From: Terriglobales bacterium
GTDB lineage: Bacteria > Acidobacteriota > Terriglobia > Terriglobales > Acidobacteriaceae
Length of the DNA stretch: 64,000 bases
Direction of reading: 5' to 3'
Assembly (NCBI GenBank): GCA_035573675.1
Contig: DATMAB010000006.1
Coordinates: 62,001-126,000 of the forward strand
Part shown: one piece after another, positions 29,326 through 64,000 of the stretch
Layout: every line of letters starts with the position of its first letter
Numbering within the stretch: the first letter of the stretch is position 1
Notes under the pieces: model-generated
Seen by the model: only the letters and a program-made list of their open reading frames with translations
Told to the model about the DNA's origin: nothing
The model's database searches: none
Translations under genes and position numbers: made by a program

Positions 29326-29374
29326 GTTAGCGGTCAGCAGTCAGCTCTTAGCTTTTGGCTCTTGGCTGAGGCAG
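29326..29374. repeat. Tandem heptamer array
   Basis: Seven-base units GGTTAGC, GGTCAGC, AGTCAGC, TCTTAGC, TTTTGGC and TCTTGGC run head to tail directly after the AzgA stop. One of several such arrays in the window. Confidence 0.75.
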
Positions 29375-45590: not shown

Positions 45591-46643
45591 GTGACCCAGC
45601 CTCTGGCCAAGACGCGCACCATCCGCTACGCCGACGCCGGCGTGGATATCGAGCGCGCCAACCGGGTCAAGCAGCGCATCAAGTATCTGGCCCACCGTAC
45701 CTTCACCCGTGGCGTGCTGAGCGAGATCGGCGGTTTCGGCGGACTGTTCGCGCTGGATAAGAAGCGCTACCGCGAACCCGTCCTGGTCTCCAGCGTCGAT
45801 GGCGTAGGCACCAAGCTGAAGGTCGCCTTCGAGATGGACCTGCACCACACCGTGGGGGCCGACCTGGTGAACCACTGCGTCAACGATATCGCCGTGCAGG
45901 GCGCCACGCCGCTGTTTTTCATGGACTACCTGGCCACCGGGACATTGAGACCGGAAGTGGCGGAAAAGATCATCAGCGGCATCGCCGCTGCCTGCAAGGC
46001 GAACGGATGCGCGCTCATCGGCGGAGAAACGGCAGAGATGCCGGGCTTCTATCCCCCGGGCGAGTACGACCTGGCGGGCTTCATCGTGGGCGTAGTGGAC
46101 CGCGAGCGCATCCTTACCGGCAAGCAGGTGCGCGCCGGGGACGTGCTCGTCGGGCTGCCCTCCAATGGCCTGCACACGAACGGCTACTCGCTGGCCCGCA
46201 AGCTGCTGTTCGAAGTGGCCCGCTACACGCCGGAGACCTTCGTCAGCGAGATCCGCTCCAAGGTGGGCACTGAGCTCATGCGCACCCACAAGAGCTACTG
46301 GCCGGTGGTCCGGCGGCTGCTCGACGGAGAAGCCGTGAGCGCCATGGCGCACATCACCGGCGGCGGCATCACCGAGAACCTGCCGCGGGTGCTGCCGCGC
46401 AACTGCGGGGCCGTGGTCGAGTTGGGCTCCTGGCCGGTGCCGCCCGTCTTTGACCATCTGCAGAAGCTGGGCAACATCCCGCGTGAGGAGATGCTACGCA
46501 CCTTCAACATGGGTGTCGGGATGGTGCTGGTGGTGCCGACAGCCAAGTTCAAGAAGGTGCAGAGCGTGCTCGACCGCGCCAGTGAAAAGGGATATACCAT
46601 CGGCCGCATCGTGCGCGGCGAGCGGCGGGTCACCTACTCCTGA
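45591..46643 (+). CDS. purM: Phosphoribosylformylglycinamidine cyclo-ligase (AIR synthetase)
   Basis: Fifth step of purine synthesis, FGAM to AIR with ATP. 350 residues, the usual length. Landmarks: SSVDGVGTKLKVAFEM, NHCVNDIAVQGATPLFFMDY, GGETAEMPGFYPPGEYDLAGF and HITGGGITENLPRVLP. GTG 45591 has AGGAAG upstream. The stop TGA is the first base set of an inverted repeat that fills the gap to purN. Confidence 0.97.
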   Translation: MTQPLAKTRTIRYADAGVDIERANRVKQRIKYLAHRTFTRGVLSEIGGFGGLFALDKKRYREPVLVSSVDGVGTKLKVAFEMDLHHTVGADLVNHCVNDIAVQGATPLFFMDYLATGTLRPEVAEKIISGIAAACKANGCALIGGETAEMPGFYPPGEYDLAGFIVGVVDRERILTGKQVRAGDVLVGLPSNGLHTNGYSLARKLLFEVARYTPETFVSEIRSKVGTELMRTHKSYWPVVRRLLDGEAVSAMAHITGGGITENLPRVLPRNCGAVVELGSWPVPPVFDHLQKLGNIPREEMLRTFNMGVGMVLVVPTAKFKKVQSVLDRASEKGYTIGRIVRGERRVTYS

Positions 46644-46748
46644 TTTGGTAATTGGGTAATTTGGAAATTTGGTAAGTGAAGATCAGCTCTCCGGGCAGTC
46701 AGATTTCTCAATTACCGAATTACCCAATTTCCCAATTCCCCAATCACC
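46641..46748. repeat. Inverted repeat between purM and purN (empty element)
   Basis: Left arm 46641-46679 and right arm 46710-46748 are complementary at 32 of 39 positions by eye (left TGATTTGGTAATTGGGTAAT..., right ending CCAATCACC). The arms consist of ~8-nt units of GGTAATTT type. The loop is about 30 nt. The left arm supplies the purM stop; the right arm abuts the purN ATG with no Shine-Dalgarno. Confidence 0.75.
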
Positions 46749-47351
46749 ATGAAGAATCTCGGCATCCTGCTCTCCGGACGCGGCACCAACTTCCAGGCCA
46801 TCGCGGATTCCTGCGATGCCGGCCGCATCCCAGCTCGCATCTCGGTCGTGATCTCGAACCGCACTGAGGCTCCGGGCATCGCGATCGCGCGCCAGCGCGG
46901 GCTCCCTGCGCTGGTCATTCCTTCGAAAGGCAAGCAGCGCGAAGAGCATGACCGCGAGGTGGTGGCGGCGCTGCAGGAGGCAAAGGTCGACCTGGTCTGC
47001 ATGGCCGGGTACATGCGCCTGCTCTCGCCCTGGTTCGTGCAGCAGTTTCCGCAACGTATCCTCAACATCCATCCTTCGCTGTTGCCCGCTTTCCCCGGCC
47101 TCGAAGCCCAGAAGCAGGCGCTGCAATACGGCGTGAAAGTCAGTGGCTGCACCGTGCACTTCGTGGATGAGCAGCTCGACCACGGCGCCATTCTCGTGCA
47201 GCGTACCGTGCCGGTGCTGGATACCGACGACGAGCACACGCTGGCGGCGCGCATCCTCGAACAGGAGCACATTGCGTATACAGAGGCGATCAATATTGTG
47301 CTCGGGGGAAGATTTGAGGTTGTTGGGCGGAGAGTGGTCAGGAAAGATTGA
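46749..47351 (+). CDS. purN: Phosphoribosylglycinamide formyltransferase
   Basis: Third step of purine synthesis, formyl transfer from 10-formyl-THF to GAR. 200 residues. Landmarks: GILLSGRGTNFQAI, AGYMRLLSPWFV, RILNIHPSLLPAFPG (catalytic Asn/His) and GCTVHFVDEQLDHGAILVQ with the catalytic Asp. ATG 46749 stands directly after the inverted repeat and has no Shine-Dalgarno. Its TGA stop is part of the next repeat copy (47347-47380). Confidence 0.97.
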   Translation: MKNLGILLSGRGTNFQAIADSCDAGRIPARISVVISNRTEAPGIAIARQRGLPALVIPSKGKQREEHDREVVAALQEAKVDLVCMAGYMRLLSPWFVQQFPQRILNIHPSLLPAFPGLEAQKQALQYGVKVSGCTVHFVDEQLDHGAILVQRTVPVLDTDDEHTLAARILEQEHIAYTEAINIVLGGRFEVVGRRVVRKD

Positions 47352-47380
47352 CGATTTGTTCATTTGCTCATTGAGGATTT
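47347..47380. repeat. Repeat copy A, left arm of the four-helix-bundle element
   Basis: Octamer-like units (TTTGTTCA, TTTGCTCA, TTGAGGA) behind ATTGACGA. Complementary to copy B: 27 of 30 positions identical to the reverse complement of 47741-47770. Contains the purN stop codon. Confidence 0.85.
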
Positions 47381-47386
47381 GGCCGC

Positions 47387-47758
47387 ATGAATCAAGCCGA
47401 AGCCCTGAAACAACGCACCACGCAGTTTGCGTTGCGAATCCTGAGGCTTTGCAGGGCCCTGCCCCGAACCGATGAAGGTCGTGTAGTTTCGCGGCAATTG
47501 CTTCGCTCTGCTACTTCCGTCGCCGCGAACTACCGCGCGGTTTGCCGAGCGCGTTCCAGGGCCGAGTTCACTTCACGCCTCGGTGTGGTCGTTGAGGAAA
47601 TGGATGAAACTGCATTCTGGATGGACTTCCTCATTCAAGGAGAGTTCCTGCCCGCAGAGCGACTCGACGGCCTGAGAAAGGAGGCGGATGAGTTGCTCGC
47701 AATCTTCGCCGCTTCGCAACGGACCGCCAAGGGTCGACAGTCTTCAATGAACAAATGA
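47387..47758 (+). CDS. Four-helix-bundle protein (S23/Avd family) inside an inverted repeat
   Basis: 123 residues with the family pattern LKQRTTQFALRILRLCRALP, VSRQLLRSATSVAANYRAVCRARSRAEFTSRLGVVVEEMDETAFWMDFL: four amphipathic helices, basic. The family is named after proteins encoded in intervening sequences of 23S rRNA and includes Avd of diversity-generating retroelements; members form pentamers and bind nucleic acid. No reverse transcriptase is near. ATG 47387 starts 7 nt after copy A, without Shine-Dalgarno. The last residues (SSMNK) and stop are encoded by copy B. Confidence 0.9.
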   Translation: MNQAEALKQRTTQFALRILRLCRALPRTDEGRVVSRQLLRSATSVAANYRAVCRARSRAEFTSRLGVVVEEMDETAFWMDFLIQGEFLPAERLDGLRKEADELLAIFAASQRTAKGRQSSMNK

Positions 47759-47770
47759 ACAGATCGTCAA
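47741..47770. repeat. Repeat copy B, right arm of the four-helix-bundle element
   Basis: On the minus strand TTGACGATCTGTTCATTTGT and on; pairs with copy A over 30 bases, 29 of them if G.U is allowed. The end of the four-helix-bundle gene lies in it. Confidence 0.85.
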
Positions 47771-47818
47771 TTCAATTTAATGTGTCCGACTCGCAATCCG
47801 TCTGCGGGCCACCGCTTT

Positions 47819-47853
47819 TCAATCTTCAATGACCAAATGAGAAAATCGTCAAT
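47819..47853. repeat. Repeat copy C, same family and orientation as copy B
   Basis: Reverse complement matches copy A at 29 of 34 positions. It is separated from copy B by about 48 nt and ends 5 nt before the tyrS -10 box. Confidence 0.8.
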
Positions 47854-47858
47854 CCCTC

Positions 47859-47871: not shown

Positions 47872-49140
47872 ATGGCTTCTTTTCGTTCCGTCGACGAACA
47901 GCTTGAACTCCTGAAGAAAGGTGCGGCCGAGATCATTCGCGAGAGCGAGCTCCGCGAGCGCCTGGAGCACTCACGCAAGACGGGCACGCCGTTGCGCGTC
48001 AAGGCGGGCTTCGACCCCACGGCGCCCGACCTGCACCTGGGCCACACCGTCCTCATCCGCAAGCTCAAGCACTTCCAGGACCTGGGGCACACAGTGATTT
48101 TCCTGATCGGCGATTTCACCGGCATGATCGGCGATCCCACCGGGCGCTCGGCCACCCGTCCGCCGCTCACCCGCGCCGAGATTGATAAGAACGCCGAGAC
48201 CTACAAGGCCCAGGTGTTCAAGCTCCTGGACGCGGAGAAGACCGTGGTCGACTTCAACAGCCGCTGGTTCTCCAAGTTTACGGCCGAGGACTTCATCCGC
48301 CTGGCGGCCAAGTACACCGTCTCGCAGATGCTCGAACGTGAGGACTTCCACCAGCGCTTCGACCACGAAAAGCCCATCGCCATCCACGAGCTGCTCTACC
48401 CGCTGGCCCAGGCGTACGACTCGGTGGCGCTGAAGGCGGATGTCGAGCTGGGCGGCACCGACCAGAAGTTCAACCTGCTGGTGGGCCGCGAGATCCAGCG
48501 CGCCTACGGCCAGCCCTCGCAGGTCGTGCTCACTACGCCGCTGCTCGAAGGCACCGACGGCGTGCAAAAGATGTCCAAGTCGTTCGGCAACGCTATCGGC
48601 ATCACCGAGCCGCCGCTGGAGATGTACGGCAAGCTCATGTCCATCTCCGACGAGATGATGTGGCGCTACTGGGAACTGCTCACCGACGCCTCCATGAGCG
48701 CCATCGAGAACATGAAGCGCCAGGTCTCGGGCGGCAAGCTCCACCCCATGAACGCCAAGAAGGGTTTGGCCGCGAAAATCGTAGCCGACTTCCATTCCGA
48801 GAAGGCCGCGCAACAGGCCGCCGACGACTGGGCCAAACAGTTCCAGAAGGGCGAAGTGCCGGAGAGCGTGACAGTCATCACTGTGCGCGTCGTCGACGTC
48901 AGTTCTATTCGTCCGGGATCTCTCACGGTGGAGGGCACAATACCACTGCAATTAGATAAGGTGCTGGCCAAGACTGGTCTCGCAGCTTCAAGATCTGAGG
49001 GAATGCGCAAGATTCGCGAGGGGGCGGTAAGCATCGACGGTACGGTTGAGCGGAGTCAGTCGATCGCAATCGACCGGTTACCAAAAGAATTCGTCCTCCG
49101 GCTGGGACGAAGACTATGTCGGGTTCGCGTCGAGAGCTAG
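47872..49140 (+). CDS. tyrS: Tyrosyl-tRNA synthetase
   Basis: Charges tRNA-Tyr. 422 residues, class I catalytic core with the HIGH-type motif [10 protein letters not shown] (~50-59) and KMSKS in [11 protein letters not shown] (~229), and a C-terminal S4 RNA-binding domain ([27 protein letters not shown]). The arrangement matches the long TyrRS (TyrZ-like) group. The start has no Shine-Dalgarno but a -10 box immediately before it. Confidence 0.97.
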
Positions 49141-54695: not shown

Positions 54696-54953
54696 ATGTT
54701 TTCCCGCAGGGTCCGTGTCGAATACGAAGCTGACGGCAAGCGCCAGCCCTGTCCGCTGAAGTGGCTGGACAGCTTCGCCATGCGCAGTTTCACCAACTCC
54801 CCCGTCTTTGACGACACCCTTCCCGCCGCCGATGGCCTGCTGGAGATCGGCGCACGAGTGCCGCTCCGGGAGTTGCGCGCCGCCATGGAAGATTGGTTCC
54901 GCAGGAAGAGCTATCTGCCAAGGGAAGCCGTGCTGATCGTAGAGGAGAGGTAG
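54696..54953 (+). CDS. Small hypothetical protein
   Basis: 85 residues (MFSRRVRVEYEADGKRQPCPLKWLDSFAMRSFTNSPVFDD...). No membrane segment, no known motif. The frame opens 16 codons earlier, but that part is repeat DNA (ATAGCTAG/ATAGCTTG units at 54633-54660). No strong ribosome site precedes ATG 54696. Its stop is followed at once by a TTCTCAG array. Probably real from composition and length, but unassigned. Confidence 0.6.
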   Translation: MFSRRVRVEYEADGKRQPCPLKWLDSFAMRSFTNSPVFDDTLPAADGLLEIGARVPLRELRAAMEDWFRRKSYLPREAVLIVEER

Positions 54954-54988
54954 TTCTCAGTTCTCAGTTCTCAGTTCTCAGTTCTCAG
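54954..54988. repeat. Perfect tandem repeat, five copies of TTCTCAG
   Basis: Five identical heptamers head to tail directly after a stop codon; the most regular of the arrays in the window and likely variable in copy number. Confidence 0.95.
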
Positions 54989-55028
54989 ACCCCTAGCCCC
55001 GATTCGCTCTGTGTCTCTGTGCCTAATC

Positions 55029-57851: not shown

Positions 57852-57924
57852 GTCAGTTGCCAGCGGTCAGTTGCCGGTCAGCGGCTGCCAGGCCCGATTG
57901 CTGAGTGCTGACTGCTGAATGCTA
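57852..57924. repeat. Heptamer arrays of opposite orientation between efp and acyP
   Basis: Left part (57852-57883) has GTCAGTT/GTCAGCG-type units; right part (57898-57924) has complementary-style units TGCTGAG, TGCTGAC, TGCTGAA. Pairing is weaker than in the other elements. The right part contains the efp stop and the left part abuts the acyP start. Confidence 0.6.
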
Positions 57925-61289: not shown

Positions 61290-61400
61290 GCTGTCATCTT
61301 CCAGCCCGCAAGGGCGGCATTCGTTAGCCCCGCACGGAAGTGCTGGGCCGAACGTGGAGAGAGGCACGAGCCCCGTAGGGGCGGCACATCAAGTTCTCAG
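61290..61400. repeat. GC-rich hairpin repeat
   Basis: Segments CAGCCCGCAAGGGCGGCA and AGCCCCGTAGGGGCGGCAC form short hairpins; same style as 22690-22800. It fills the gap between the FecR-like and PilZ genes. Confidence 0.55.
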
Positions 61401-61884: not shown

Positions 61885-62490
61885 CTACGCCCGAACGCGT
61901 GCTGGCGCGGGTTTCCACAAGGCCAGGAAGTTGGCCAGCATGCGCTTCCCATCCTCGGTCAGCACGCTCTCCGGATGGAACTGCACGCCTTCGACGGCCC
62001 AGTGCCGGTGCCGCAGCCCCATGATGACCGCCTCCCCTTCCCCGCGCACGGTGCGGGCGCTGACCTCCAACTCGCGCGGCAGGCCGTGCCGGCTGACCAT
62101 CAGCGAGTGATAGCGGGTCGCGGTCAGCGGCGAGGGCAGGCCGCGAAAAATCGTCCGGCCATCGTGTTCCACGCGGCTGGTCTTGCCGTGCATCAGGCGC
62201 GGCGCACGAACTACGCGTCCGCCGAACGCCTCTCCGATGGCTTGGTGCCCGAGGCAAACGCCCAGAATGGCCGCCCGCCCGGCAAAGCGCCGGATGAGCG
62301 GGATGGAAATGCCCGCCTCCCGCGGCGTGCCCGGCCCCGGCGAGATCACGATGCGCTCCGGCCTGAGCGCTTCCACCTCTTCCAGCGTCACCTGATCGTT
62401 GCGCCGCACCTCCACCTCCGCCCCCAACTCGCCCAGGTACTGGACCAGGTTGTAGGTAAAGGAATCGTAGTTGTCGAGAACGAAGACCAT
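61885..62490 (-). CDS. trpG: Anthranilate synthase component II (glutamine amidotransferase)
   Basis: Supplies ammonia to TrpE (may also serve PabB). 201 residues: [19 protein letters not shown], the oxyanion segment [10 protein letters not shown], catalytic Cys in [10 protein letters not shown] and His/Glu in [13 protein letters not shown] 62490 is directly against the inverted repeat, which leaves no Shine-Dalgarno. In most bacteria trpG follows trpE directly; here a four-helix-bundle gene stands between them. Confidence 0.95.
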
Positions 62491-62520
62491 AGTGGCTAGT
62501 GGTCAGTGGTTAGTGGTTAG
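62491..62520. repeat. Left arm of the trpE/trpG four-helix-bundle element
   Basis: Heptamer units AGTGGCT, AGTGGTC, AGTGGTT, AGTGGTT. Identical to the reverse complement of the right arm at 27 of 30 positions. It contains the four-helix-bundle stop codon and touches the trpG ATG. Confidence 0.9.
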
Positions 62521-62893
62521 TTTCGGAAGCCCCTCGATCGCCGAGGGACGACATTAGACCGTTCAGAATTCTACCGACCTCGGCGGAATGAGAGGTCAGG
62601 GCATCGGCGTCCTTCCTGCTCAGGTACTTCAGCTTCTCGGCAATGCGCAATTGCGTGTTGAGTTCGTACAAGGAACCCCTTGCATGACCAAGGAACTGTT
62701 TGAACTCGCCGGTCGAAAGCCTGCCCTGGCCTTCCGCAATATTGCTCGGAATCGAAACTGCCGCCCGGCGTAACTGCGCCGTCAGTCCGTAGACTTCGTC
62801 CCTTGGGAAACTCTTGGTAGCTCGATAGACCTCCGCGACCAGGTCAACGGCCTTTTGCCACGCAATCAGGTCCTCATACGAGTGTAAGGCCAT
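62510..62893 (-). CDS. Four-helix-bundle protein (S23/Avd family) between trpE and trpG
   Basis: 127 residues, family pattern HSYEDLIAWQKAVDLVAEVYRATKSFP, YGLTAQLRRAAVSIPSNIAEGQGRLSTGEFKQFLGHARGSLYELNTQLRIAEKL. It belongs to a different subgroup from the protein at 47387 (DLxxWQKA versus LKxRTxxFALR), so the two are not a recent duplicate. ATG 62893 has AAGGGG six nt upstream. Final residues TNH and the stop are encoded in the repeat arm. No reverse transcriptase nearby. Confidence 0.92.
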   Translation of the reverse strand: MALHSYEDLIAWQKAVDLVAEVYRATKSFPRDEVYGLTAQLRRAAVSIPSNIAEGQGRLSTGEFKQFLGHARGSLYELNTQLRIAEKLKYLSRKDADALTSHSAEVGRILNGLMSSLGDRGASETNH

Positions 62894-62920
62894 CTTTCGC
62901 CCCTTTCGGTTTTCTGTTTG

Positions 62921-62950
62921 CTAGCCACTAGCCACTAACCACTAGCCACT
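62921..62950. repeat. Right arm of the trpE/trpG four-helix-bundle element
   Basis: Heptamer units CTAGCCA, CTAGCCA, CTAACCA, CTAGCCA. Complement of 62491-62520. Supplies the TAG stop of trpE (62942-62944) and its last codons. Confidence 0.9.
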
Positions 62951-64000
62951 TGATGCCCGCGCCATTTCCACCGCCCGCATCACCCCCCTCGCCTTGTTCC
63001 AACACTCCTCCCACTCCCGCTCCGGCCGGCTGTCGGCCACGATCCCCGCGCCCGCCTGCACGTACGCCCGGCCGTCCCGTGCCAGCAGCGTGCGGATGGC
63101 GATGCAGGAATCCAGGTTGCCGGCGAAGTCGGCGTAGAGCACCGCGCCGCCGTAGAGACCGCGCCGCACCGGCTCCAGCTCCTCGATGAGCTGCATCGAG
63201 CGCACTTTCGGGGCCCCGGTCAGCGTGCCCGCGGGGAAGCAGGCCGTGAAGGCGTCGAGCGCGTCCAGCCCCGGACGCAGGCGCGCCTCCAATGCCGACA
63301 CCAGGTGCATCACGTGCGAATAGCGCTCCACGAACATCAGGTCGCGCACCCGCACCGAGCCGTATTCCGCCACCCGGCCCAGGTCGTTACGCCCCAGGTC
63401 CACCAGCATCACGTGCTCGGCGCGCTCCTTTTCGTCGGCGCGCAATTCTTCTTCCAGACGGAGGTCGGCGGTCTCGTCGGCGCCGCGCGGGCGCGTTCCC
63501 GCAATCGGCCGGTACTCCAGCCGTCGCCCCGTGACCTTCACCAGCATCTCCGGAGACGACCCCAGCACTTCGGTCTCTCCCATGCGCAGGTAGTAGAGAT
63601 ACGGCGAAGGATTGACGGCCCGCAGAGCGCGGTAGATGGCGAACGGCTCCACGCCCGGCTGAAAGTCGCACCGCAGCGAGAGCACGGTCTGGTACACGTC
63701 CCCGCGCGCAATGTGCCGCTTGATGCTCCGGACGCCCTCCATGTACTGCCGGCGCGTTGCGCTGCTGCGCACTTGCATACGCCGCAGTCGCCCCGCAGCC
63801 TGCAAGCCGCGCAGGTCCGCAGGACGCACACCGCGCGCCAGGCGTCGCTCGATGGCAGCGATATCCTCCACCGCCCGCTCATATGCGCGCCGCAGCGCCG
63901 CCGCCGATTTGTCCCCCACGTCGGCTGCGGCCAGAATGTGGATCTGGTGGCGCACGTGGTCGAAGGCCAGCAGCCGGTCGAAGAACATCAGGACGCCGTC
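62942..64000 (-). CDS. trpE: Anthranilate synthase component I / PabB-type chorismate-binding enzyme (N-terminus beyond window)
   Basis: Makes anthranilate from chorismate with TrpG. The visible 352 residues are the chorismate-binding domain: YRPIAGTRPRG, EKERAEHVMLVDLGRNDLGRV, FPAGTLTGAPKVRSMQLIEELEP and YVQAGAGIVADSRPEREWEE, all active-site landmarks. The frame is open to base 64000. TrpE rather than PabB is favoured by the trpG neighbour, but not proven. The stop and last residues SSG come from the repeat arm. Confidence 0.93.
   Translation of the reverse strand, partial: DGVLMFFDRLLAFDHVRHQIHILAAADVGDKSAAALRRAYERAVEDIAAIERRLARGVRPADLRGLQAAGRLRRMQVRSSATRRQYMEGVRSIKRHIARGDVYQTVLSLRCDFQPGVEPFAIYRALRAVNPSPYLYYLRMGETEVLGSSPEMLVKVTGRRLEYRPIAGTRPRGADETADLRLEEELRADEKERAEHVMLVDLGRNDLGRVAEYGSVRVRDLMFVERYSHVMHLVSALEARLRPGLDALDAFTACFPAGTLTGAPKVRSMQLIEELEPVRRGLYGGAVLYADFAGNLDSCIAIRTLLARDGRAYVQAGAGIVADSRPEREWEECWNKARGVMRAVEMARASSG

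Follow-up and report, generated by a model that had tools for sequence, protein, structure and literature searches.

The trpE-trpG junction of this Terriglobales bacterium raises the question of why a gene for an S23-family protein should lie between two inverted heptamer arrays, in the narrow space between the stop codon of one gene and the start codon of the next. In the window (the whole stretch of DNA analysed, 64,000 nt), the gene order on the minus strand is trpE, S23 gene, trpG, and the junction contains the following features.

62942..63988, minus strand: trpE, 3′ part; the frame extends past the window
62921..62950, minus strand: upstream arm, AGTGGYT x4.3 (by TRF and complementarity), containing the trpE stop at 62944-62942
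62510..62893, minus strand: S23-family four-helix-bundle gene, 127 aa, between and codirectional with trpE and trpG
62491..62520, minus strand: downstream arm, inverted AGTGGYT-type array, containing the S23 stop at 62512-62510 and abutting the trpG ATG
61885..62490, minus strand: trpG

When read on the minus strand, the arms are AGTGGCTAGTGGTTAGTGGCTAGTGGCTAG (first arm, 62950-62921) and CTAACCACTAACCACTGACCACTAGCCACT (second arm, 62520-62491). They are complementary at 27 of 30 bases, and TRF identified both as period-7 tandem arrays, in which AGTGGYT-type heptamers are inverted relative to each other. The stop codons that fall within them are TAG for trpE and TAA for the S23 gene, and the downstream arm stands directly 5′ of the trpG ATG (62490-62488). 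This arrangement had been proposed by a first-pass annotation made from the letters alone, and its claims of 27 of 30 complementary bases, of a trpE stop in one arm and of a cassette stop in the other arm touching the trpG ATG all agreed with the coordinates. The cassette measures 460 nt. Besides the S23 gene, the single ORF of at least 60 aa between the arms was an antisense frame of 61 aa; unlike a classical transposon, the cassette encodes no transposase between its arms.

The first-pass assignment of the enclosed ORF to the S23 family was borne out by profile searches, in which the ORF passed the curated cut-offs of both TIGR02436 (127.2 bits, cut-off 24) and PF05635 (134.4 bits, cut-off 33.8). 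Its structure, predicted from the single sequence with a mean pLDDT of 75, is a four-helix bundle, and its closest solved relative was XCC0516 of Xanthomonas campestris (2GSC; E 1.3e-28; Foldseek rank 1). Four NCBIfam models matched the protein, namely two PRK12275 hypothetical-protein models, TIGR02436 and, below its cut-off, Avd; no Y1/HUH or transposase model was among these matches. To our knowledge, S23 proteins have no catalytic domain. When the gene was compared with its orthologue in the congener G001, dN was 0.07 and dS 1.38, values which indicate that the trpE-trpG S23 gene evolves under constraint.

Thirty trpE-trpG loci from 41 genomes, the organism's own (G000) included, were compared. 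The cassette was present in G000, G001, G002 and G024 and was 5′-truncated in G004. In six loci (L206, L212, L214, L215, L220 and L222) trpE and trpG abut within about 4 nt, and in the remaining loci trpG was further away, inverted or not found nearby. The empty junctions of these relatives show that the cassette was inserted. The first-pass annotation had set the same gene order without repeats in relatives against its view that each protein belongs with a repeat; such junctions do exist, and they leave that pairing intact. In G001 the insert splits TA|A and ATG, and the counterpart in G006 reads TAAATG; when empty and filled trpE-trpG sites were compared by eye at one site, no evident target-site duplication was seen. 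In L201 and L221 a heptamer array follows trpE, and L221 also appeared by eye to retain an S23-like remnant.

The position of the cassette relative to its neighbours was also examined in 148 elements with enough flanking sequence. The upstream gene was codirectional with S23 in 119 of 145 cases. Both neighbours lay on the S23 strand in 80 elements and both on the opposite strand in 17; with a second gene picker the corresponding counts were 68 and 15, the class counts differing between the two pickers because neighbour genes were chosen by ORF length and GC3. The median distance between the stop of a codirectional upstream gene and the beginning of the arm was -2 nt, and convergent neighbours were close on both sides (35 and 26 of 48 within 15 nt). 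Insertion targeted by sequence to stop codons was considered and set aside, given the closeness of convergent neighbours on both sides; no target specificity is claimed, because in compact operons most tolerated insertions must land at stops.

To express how general the inverted arms are, the 260 nt preceding an S23 gene were aligned locally with the reverse complement of the 260 nt following it, and the best match gave the arm score. Control windows had the same geometry shifted within the same loci and were thus mostly coding sequence. The set from the organism's own class comprised 83 elements, after frame-broken matches had been merged, L025 (whose genes are in L061) left out, and six weaker PF05635 matches in G002, G004, G005, G010, G011 and G019 likewise left out. 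Scores of at least 30 were reached by 66 of these 83 elements and by 2 of 476 controls; the trpE-trpG element scored 45, and the highest of the 476 control windows from the same locus set scored 43. The same threshold was reached at 72 of 80 genome loci from many phyla (Acidobacteria, Planctomycetes, Deltaproteobacteria, Chloroflexi, Bacteroidetes and others) and on 28 of 31 viral contigs (31 of 32 scored, one being too short), compared with 4 of 785 controls. It was also reached at 26 of 35 loci from seven genomes and gammaproteobacteria (35 of 38 scored, three being too short; several repeat records of the many-phyla and viral sets), compared with 1 of 198 controls, and at 28 of the best 30 XCC0516-type matches in the family of G414, compared with 2 of 177. 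Control windows thus reached 30 at a rate of about 1% or less, and elements without clear arms by score numbered 17/83, 8/80, 3/31, 9/35 and 2/30, respectively. Most sampled S23 genes sit between inverted arrays whose two arms share one unit, and the trpE-trpG cassette is one case of this general rule.

Among 168 arms with a score of at least 26, the period was 7 in 127, 8 in 16 and 9 in 1, with none clear in 24. Octamers were considered as the mark of one S23 subgroup but showed only a tendency, occurring in 6 of 15 elements of a divergent group and in 10 of 125 of the main group. On the S23-sense strand of the upstream arm, the units of 127 elements shared a weak core, NNNAGTN, that was strand-specific (log-likelihood per element 2.30, compared with 1.72 with random strand). 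Moreover, the arms mirror each other in register, with an identity of 0.890 compared with 0.855 after unit shuffling (98 elements). Contigs that IMG/VR classes as viral (L161-L192) likewise carry S23 genes between heptamer arms. In Planctomycetes, L101 and L126 have very long S23 arms of about 130-200 nt, composed of GTGGACG and GTGGTCA heptamers.

The organism's own assembly (3.16 Mb) contained 11 PF05635 matches, and by eye all 11 S23 genes were flanked on both sides by inverted short tandem arrays, mostly of differing units. The 7-nt units were AGTTCTC, AGTGGYT, AGTGGCC-like, AGCAATC, GCGATAA, CTCTCCG, AGTACCG and GAACTAT, and the 8-nt units were ATTTGYTC and AATTTGGT. Nine of the 11 elements had an arm score of at least 30, with L003 at 29 and L004, the arms of which are GC-rich and less regular, at 28. 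The L001 gene has an internal stop and the L008 gene is truncated. The window itself holds a second S23 element as well as arrays that stand without an S23 gene.

46643..46748, no strand: inverted octamer array pair ATTTGGTA / CAATTACC, without S23, just 5′ of ORF 46749
47346..47379, plus strand: upstream arm of the second S23 element, made of ATTTGYTC-type octamers; it overlaps the end of ORF 46749-47351, which we take to be purN-like
47387..47758, plus strand: divergent S23-family gene (TIGR02436, 77.7 bits)
47746..47775, plus strand: near downstream inverted arm of the 47347 element
29343..29367, plus strand: solo heptamer array, AGCTNTT type, without a matching own S23 unit
54949..54993, plus strand: solo heptamer array AGTTCTC x5; S23 element L001, located elsewhere in the genome, has this unit
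57894..57924, minus strand: solo heptamer array, GCTGANT type, for which the closest S23 unit is that of L005

The first-pass annotation had described the 47347 element as identical in architecture to the trpE-trpG cassette. This had to be corrected, given that its units are octamers and that it has two candidate downstream arms, of which the further one (~47821-47854) scored best; unlike in the trpE-trpG cassette, neither touches the next start codon (near 47872). The octamer pair at 46643..46748 was nearest to the unit of S23 element L011. At 61303-61393 the window also contains REP-like palindromes between genes. Judged by eye, palindromes of this kind flank Y1 transposase genes, which would give these genomes an example of their own of a gene-plus-repeat system, RAYT/REP-like, next to that of S23.

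Solo arrays of this sort were found throughout the 464 kb of the own genome that was searched. Of the 62 arrays with a period of 7 or 8 that a strict detector identified, 60 lay apart from S23 genes; densities were 11.2 and 2.2 per 100 kb, compared with 0.2 and 0.1 after block shuffling. When the 60 solo arrays were compared with 8 of the 11 own S23 units (L004, L008 and L010 left out), 33 matched, whereas 300 draws of foreign unit sets gave 7.3 matches on average and never more than 21. An inverted partner within 400 nt accompanied 10 of the 60, and none in controls. The strands of solo arrays relative to tandem neighbours were divided 14:14, compared with 80:17 for S23 cassettes. Only 6 of the 60 lay inside long coding-like ORFs. 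A gene 3′ end was no more than 25 nt away for 21 of 50 solo arrays, and a 5′ end for 16 of 52 (5′ distances being rough); 8 of 54 intergenic solo arrays lay between divergent genes. AGTTTCG-type arrays were also present in the own genome, where no S23 element has that unit. At L224 16354-16420 and L231 8061-8130, different unit families stand end to end, as if arrays land beside arrays.

When arrays near S23 genes were excluded, array density followed S23 count across 16 genomes (rho 0.81, p 1.7e-4), a statistic to be read with the relatedness of the genomes in mind, as they are not independent. Six S23-free genomes had 0, 6.7, 0, 0, 0 and 0 arrays per 100 kb, two genomes with one S23 gene had 0, and eight with at least 3 had 12.9, 12.5, 3.7, 1.7, 1.7, 8.3, 7.5 and 10; each genome was sampled over 16-100 kb of chosen contigs (the own genome over 464 kb), and some density values derive from one to five arrays within 20-80 kb. 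One genome, G014, had no PF05635 match yet had 4 arrays in 60 kb; its array types (L248-L250) were GGCAACT, AGCAATC and AGTTGCC. When G000 was compared with its congener G001, several arrays were absent at the homologous place. At one shared site (L224 17495-17538 and L342), array length and register were similar and every unit differed, the unit being AGTGGTC in G000 and AGTNNCG in G001. This site may have been rewritten in concert, with independent insertion as the alternative.

The correspondence between protein and unit was assessed among S23 elements at non-homologous sites. Unit similarity rose with protein identity, from 0.42 below 25% to about 0.66 at 70-80% (140 elements). For 124 heptamer elements the Mantel r was 0.30, a value reached by 0 of 500 permutations (maximum 0.13), and in 75 tree-independent pairs unit changes tracked protein distance (r 0.69). 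At equal protein identity, unit pairs from the same genome were not consistently more alike than pairs from different genomes. The first-pass proposal that each protein goes with its own repeat thus holds as a graded rule and fails as a one-to-one rule, as exemplified by L145 and L111, the proteins of which are 83% identical and the units clearly different. These comparisons show that the S23 gene and its arms evolve together. Recognition does not follow from that alone, since a gene and arms that merely move as one piece would co-diverge as well. The case for a protein-repeat match is stronger in trans, where solo arrays match the units of resident S23 elements. A residue-by-base covariation scan of the 75 independent pairs, stratified by protein distance, remained at chance level (family-wise p 0.51). 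Among the 30 XCC0516 orthologues (L381-L410), one helix-4 column, the best of 15 listed, separated the unit types, with T in 16 of 17 GGGAATC orthologues and N in 13 of 13 GGGATTC orthologues; the single exception has mixed arms. The GGGATTC orthologues fall in two branches of the protein tree, and outside the Xanthomonas-type orthologues the same column was suggestive (p 0.07).

These orthologues provide a link to heptamers already described. A published study of two xanthomonads counted 186 and 183 GGGAATC-type arrays and 70 and 75 cases in which they form inverted pairs; the arrays are mostly intergenic, lie nearer the 5′ neighbour and, in the main text of that report, are tied to no gene (PMC4692102). 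That main text contains no occurrence of S23, four helix or XCC0516. The family of G414 (233 genomes) is taken here as that of Xanthomonas, judging by 62-70% identity to XCC0516 and by the heptamer. All of the best 30 XCC0516 orthologues in this family had GGGAATC- or GGGATTC-type arms. The GGGAATC-type heptamer of Xanthomonas is the arm unit of XCC0516 orthologues, as read from the arms of these 30 genes. The median number of GGGAWTN x3 matches was 75.5 in the 30 orthologue genomes (all with at least 5), 3 in 48 genomes with other S23 matches and 0 in 155 genomes without a match, where overlapping windows were counted separately, S23 arms were included, the pattern had been chosen from those arms and the genomes are related to one another. 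Among the 155 genomes without an S23 match, 21 had at least 5 and 12 had at least 20 GGGAWTN matches.

An S23 gene with inverted repeats is already known from the intervening sequences (IVS) of 23S rRNA. The Coxiella IVS resembles the cassette in its S23 family, its terminal inverted repeats and its size (428 nt, compared with 460 nt here), and heptamer direct repeats before its S23 ORF have been described (PMC4990558). It differs in that the cassette lies between the protein-coding trpE and trpG and not inside a 23S rRNA gene, in that solo arrays occur elsewhere in the genome, and in that no sign of selection on RNA pairing was seen. RAYT/REPIN systems, which have also been described (PMC8049555), are alike in that inverted copies of a short repeat enclose one gene and further copies are scattered over the same genome, and both kinds of system occur side by side in three genomes (G000, G002 and G008). 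However, S23 is a four-helix bundle without a Y1/HUH match, Y1_Tnp matches lying elsewhere in the genome, and REPs are palindromes with a GTAG or CGTC tag, whereas S23 units are tandem heptamers of the NNNAGTN type, or octamers. The Xanthomonas GGGAATC and Nostoc GGGGAYT arrays (PMC4692102) share with the present system the GGGAATC-type arm unit of the 30 XCC0516-orthologue genomes, but are tied to no S23-type gene in the main text of that paper. Abundant, dispersed heptamer arrays were also reported as TAACTGA in Beggiatoaceae (PMC4679880) and GGGACCG in Geobacter metallireducens (PMC2700814); both, compared here by description, were read there as possible regulatory sites, and the term S23 does not occur in the main text of either paper. 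The Avd protein of DGRs has a similar fold (Foldseek 4dwl, 8ub7 and 8ub8, ranks 11-13, E 0.07-0.15), but the DivGenRetAVD score of 37.7 bits was below the cut-off of 80 and G000 gave no PF00078 match.

The explanation towards which we lean, with slightly better than even confidence, is that S23 acts in trans as the partner of a heptamer family scattered through the genome, in the manner of RAYT/REPIN systems, with an unrelated protein and no known nuclease. The cassette would then be the gene-bearing member of a two-part repeat system, in which an S23 gene is flanked by inverted arrays with a unit (7 nt, sometimes 8) tied to the S23 lineage, and in which gene-less arrays of such units are spread over the same genome, mostly between genes. 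An S23 oligomer (2GSC has five chains) may recognise its own array as DNA and may steer a host or other nuclease or polymerase, such that arrays are copied into new sites at gene ends; solo arrays would be non-autonomous copies. The gene-bearing copy would be kept where a host operon transcribes S23, which would account for the orientation bias of the cassettes. That S23 recognises or spreads arrays is what we infer from sequence comparison. DNA seems the likelier level of recognition, since arm mismatches have no G.U bias and solo arrays are mostly unpaired and unoriented.

A rival reading, that the arms act as an RNA hairpin, would make the cassette an mRNA version of the 23S IVS: the arms would pair in the transcript, S23 would bind the stem or RNase III would cut it, and the cassette would be removed from, or isolated within, the trpE-trpG mRNA. 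The excess of cassettes codirectional with both neighbours (80 compared with 17, or 68 compared with 15 by the other picker) and the mirroring of the arms in register (0.890 compared with 0.855) are consistent with this reading, as is the Coxiella 23S IVS, which is described as having an S23 ORF, inverted repeats, heptamers and RNase III cleavage (PMC4990558). However, in 187 non-redundant of 195 elements, then restricted to 162 with a score of at least 28, arm mismatches were wobble-compatible in 177 cases and incompatible in 164 (p 0.52), a test that gave the RNA stem no support. Moreover, 50 of the 60 solo arrays lack an inverted partner within 400 nt, and the strands of solo arrays are evenly divided, so that most cannot form such stems. 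The RNA-stem test suggested in the first-pass annotation is thereby less favoured, and we consider the hairpin reading unlikely. A purely regulatory role, in which S23 would be a sequence-specific DNA-binding regulator or nucleoid protein, the arrays its operators and the arms autoregulatory, without mobility, also seems rather doubtful, although it would accommodate the association of units and S23 in trans, the constraint on S23 and the possible concerted unit change at the shared G000/G001 site. Against it, solo arrays lie near 3′ ends (21 of 50 within 25 nt) as well as 5′ ends (16 of 52), few (8 of 54) occupy gaps between divergent genes, empty S23 sites exist, and the absence of several arrays at the homologous place in the congener suits spreading repeats better than stable operators.

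The remaining explanations assign the arrays to another agent. Y1 (RAYT-type) transposases, present in 33 of 41 genomes, might drive the heptamer arrays with S23 as a passenger. Their number does follow array density in the 16 genomes (rho 0.75; partial 0.55, compared with 0.66 for S23), and S23-orthologue genomes with Y1_Tnp have more arrays (median 102.5 compared with 12, p 0.0095). Among 20 Y1 matches in three genomes (L421 left out), however, 17 carried inverted flanks of their own that scored at least 30 and looked to the eye like palindromic REPs; only 1 of the 20 had a heptamer array nearby. G025 has arrays and 4 S23 genes with no Y1_Tnp match, the median array count was 0 in 134 genomes with Y1_Tnp and without an S23 orthologue, and the 6 orthologue genomes without Y1_Tnp all had at least 5 arrays. 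RAYT ownership of the arrays is thus not supported and we hold it to be improbable; because Y1 number follows array number, Y1 transposases could be helpers. A reverse-transcriptase partner was likewise rejected. PF00078 had no match in G000, G001, G002 and G008, the S23-richest genomes searched, and 10 of 41 genomes have one; an Avd-like retro-process would therefore need another enzyme. Finally, polymerase slippage, proposed for heptamers in general (PMC4692102, PMC4679880), might create arrays in which S23 genes merely land, and the arrays of the S23-free G014 would fit such an origin. Insertion into a tandem array would, however, give direct and not inverted arms, the arm units vary with the S23 lineage, and arrays track both the presence of S23 and its unit, so that slippage is scarcely credible as the source.

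A broader version of this proposal, to which we give a little short of an even chance, is that S23 proteins are the missing drivers of bacterial heptamer repeats, each lineage reading its own heptamer as DNA, with arrays that multiply in trans and are rewritten as specificity shifts. Such a system would propagate repeats without a nuclease or with the aid of a helper, and would resemble none so far described. No publication joining S23 with dispersed heptamers was found in the open-licence literature, judged mostly from listings. The proposal joins two questions, namely what S23 (PF05635) does when it is not part of rRNA and why bacterial genomes have an excess of heptamer tandem repeats, and it makes a testable prediction, that the arms of an S23 gene should foretell which repeat is dispersed in its genome. 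Such a cassette can sit exactly between a stop and a start codon even in so central an operon as trpE-trpG. If S23 reads a variable heptamer, the family would constitute a large natural set of matched protein/DNA-unit pairs.
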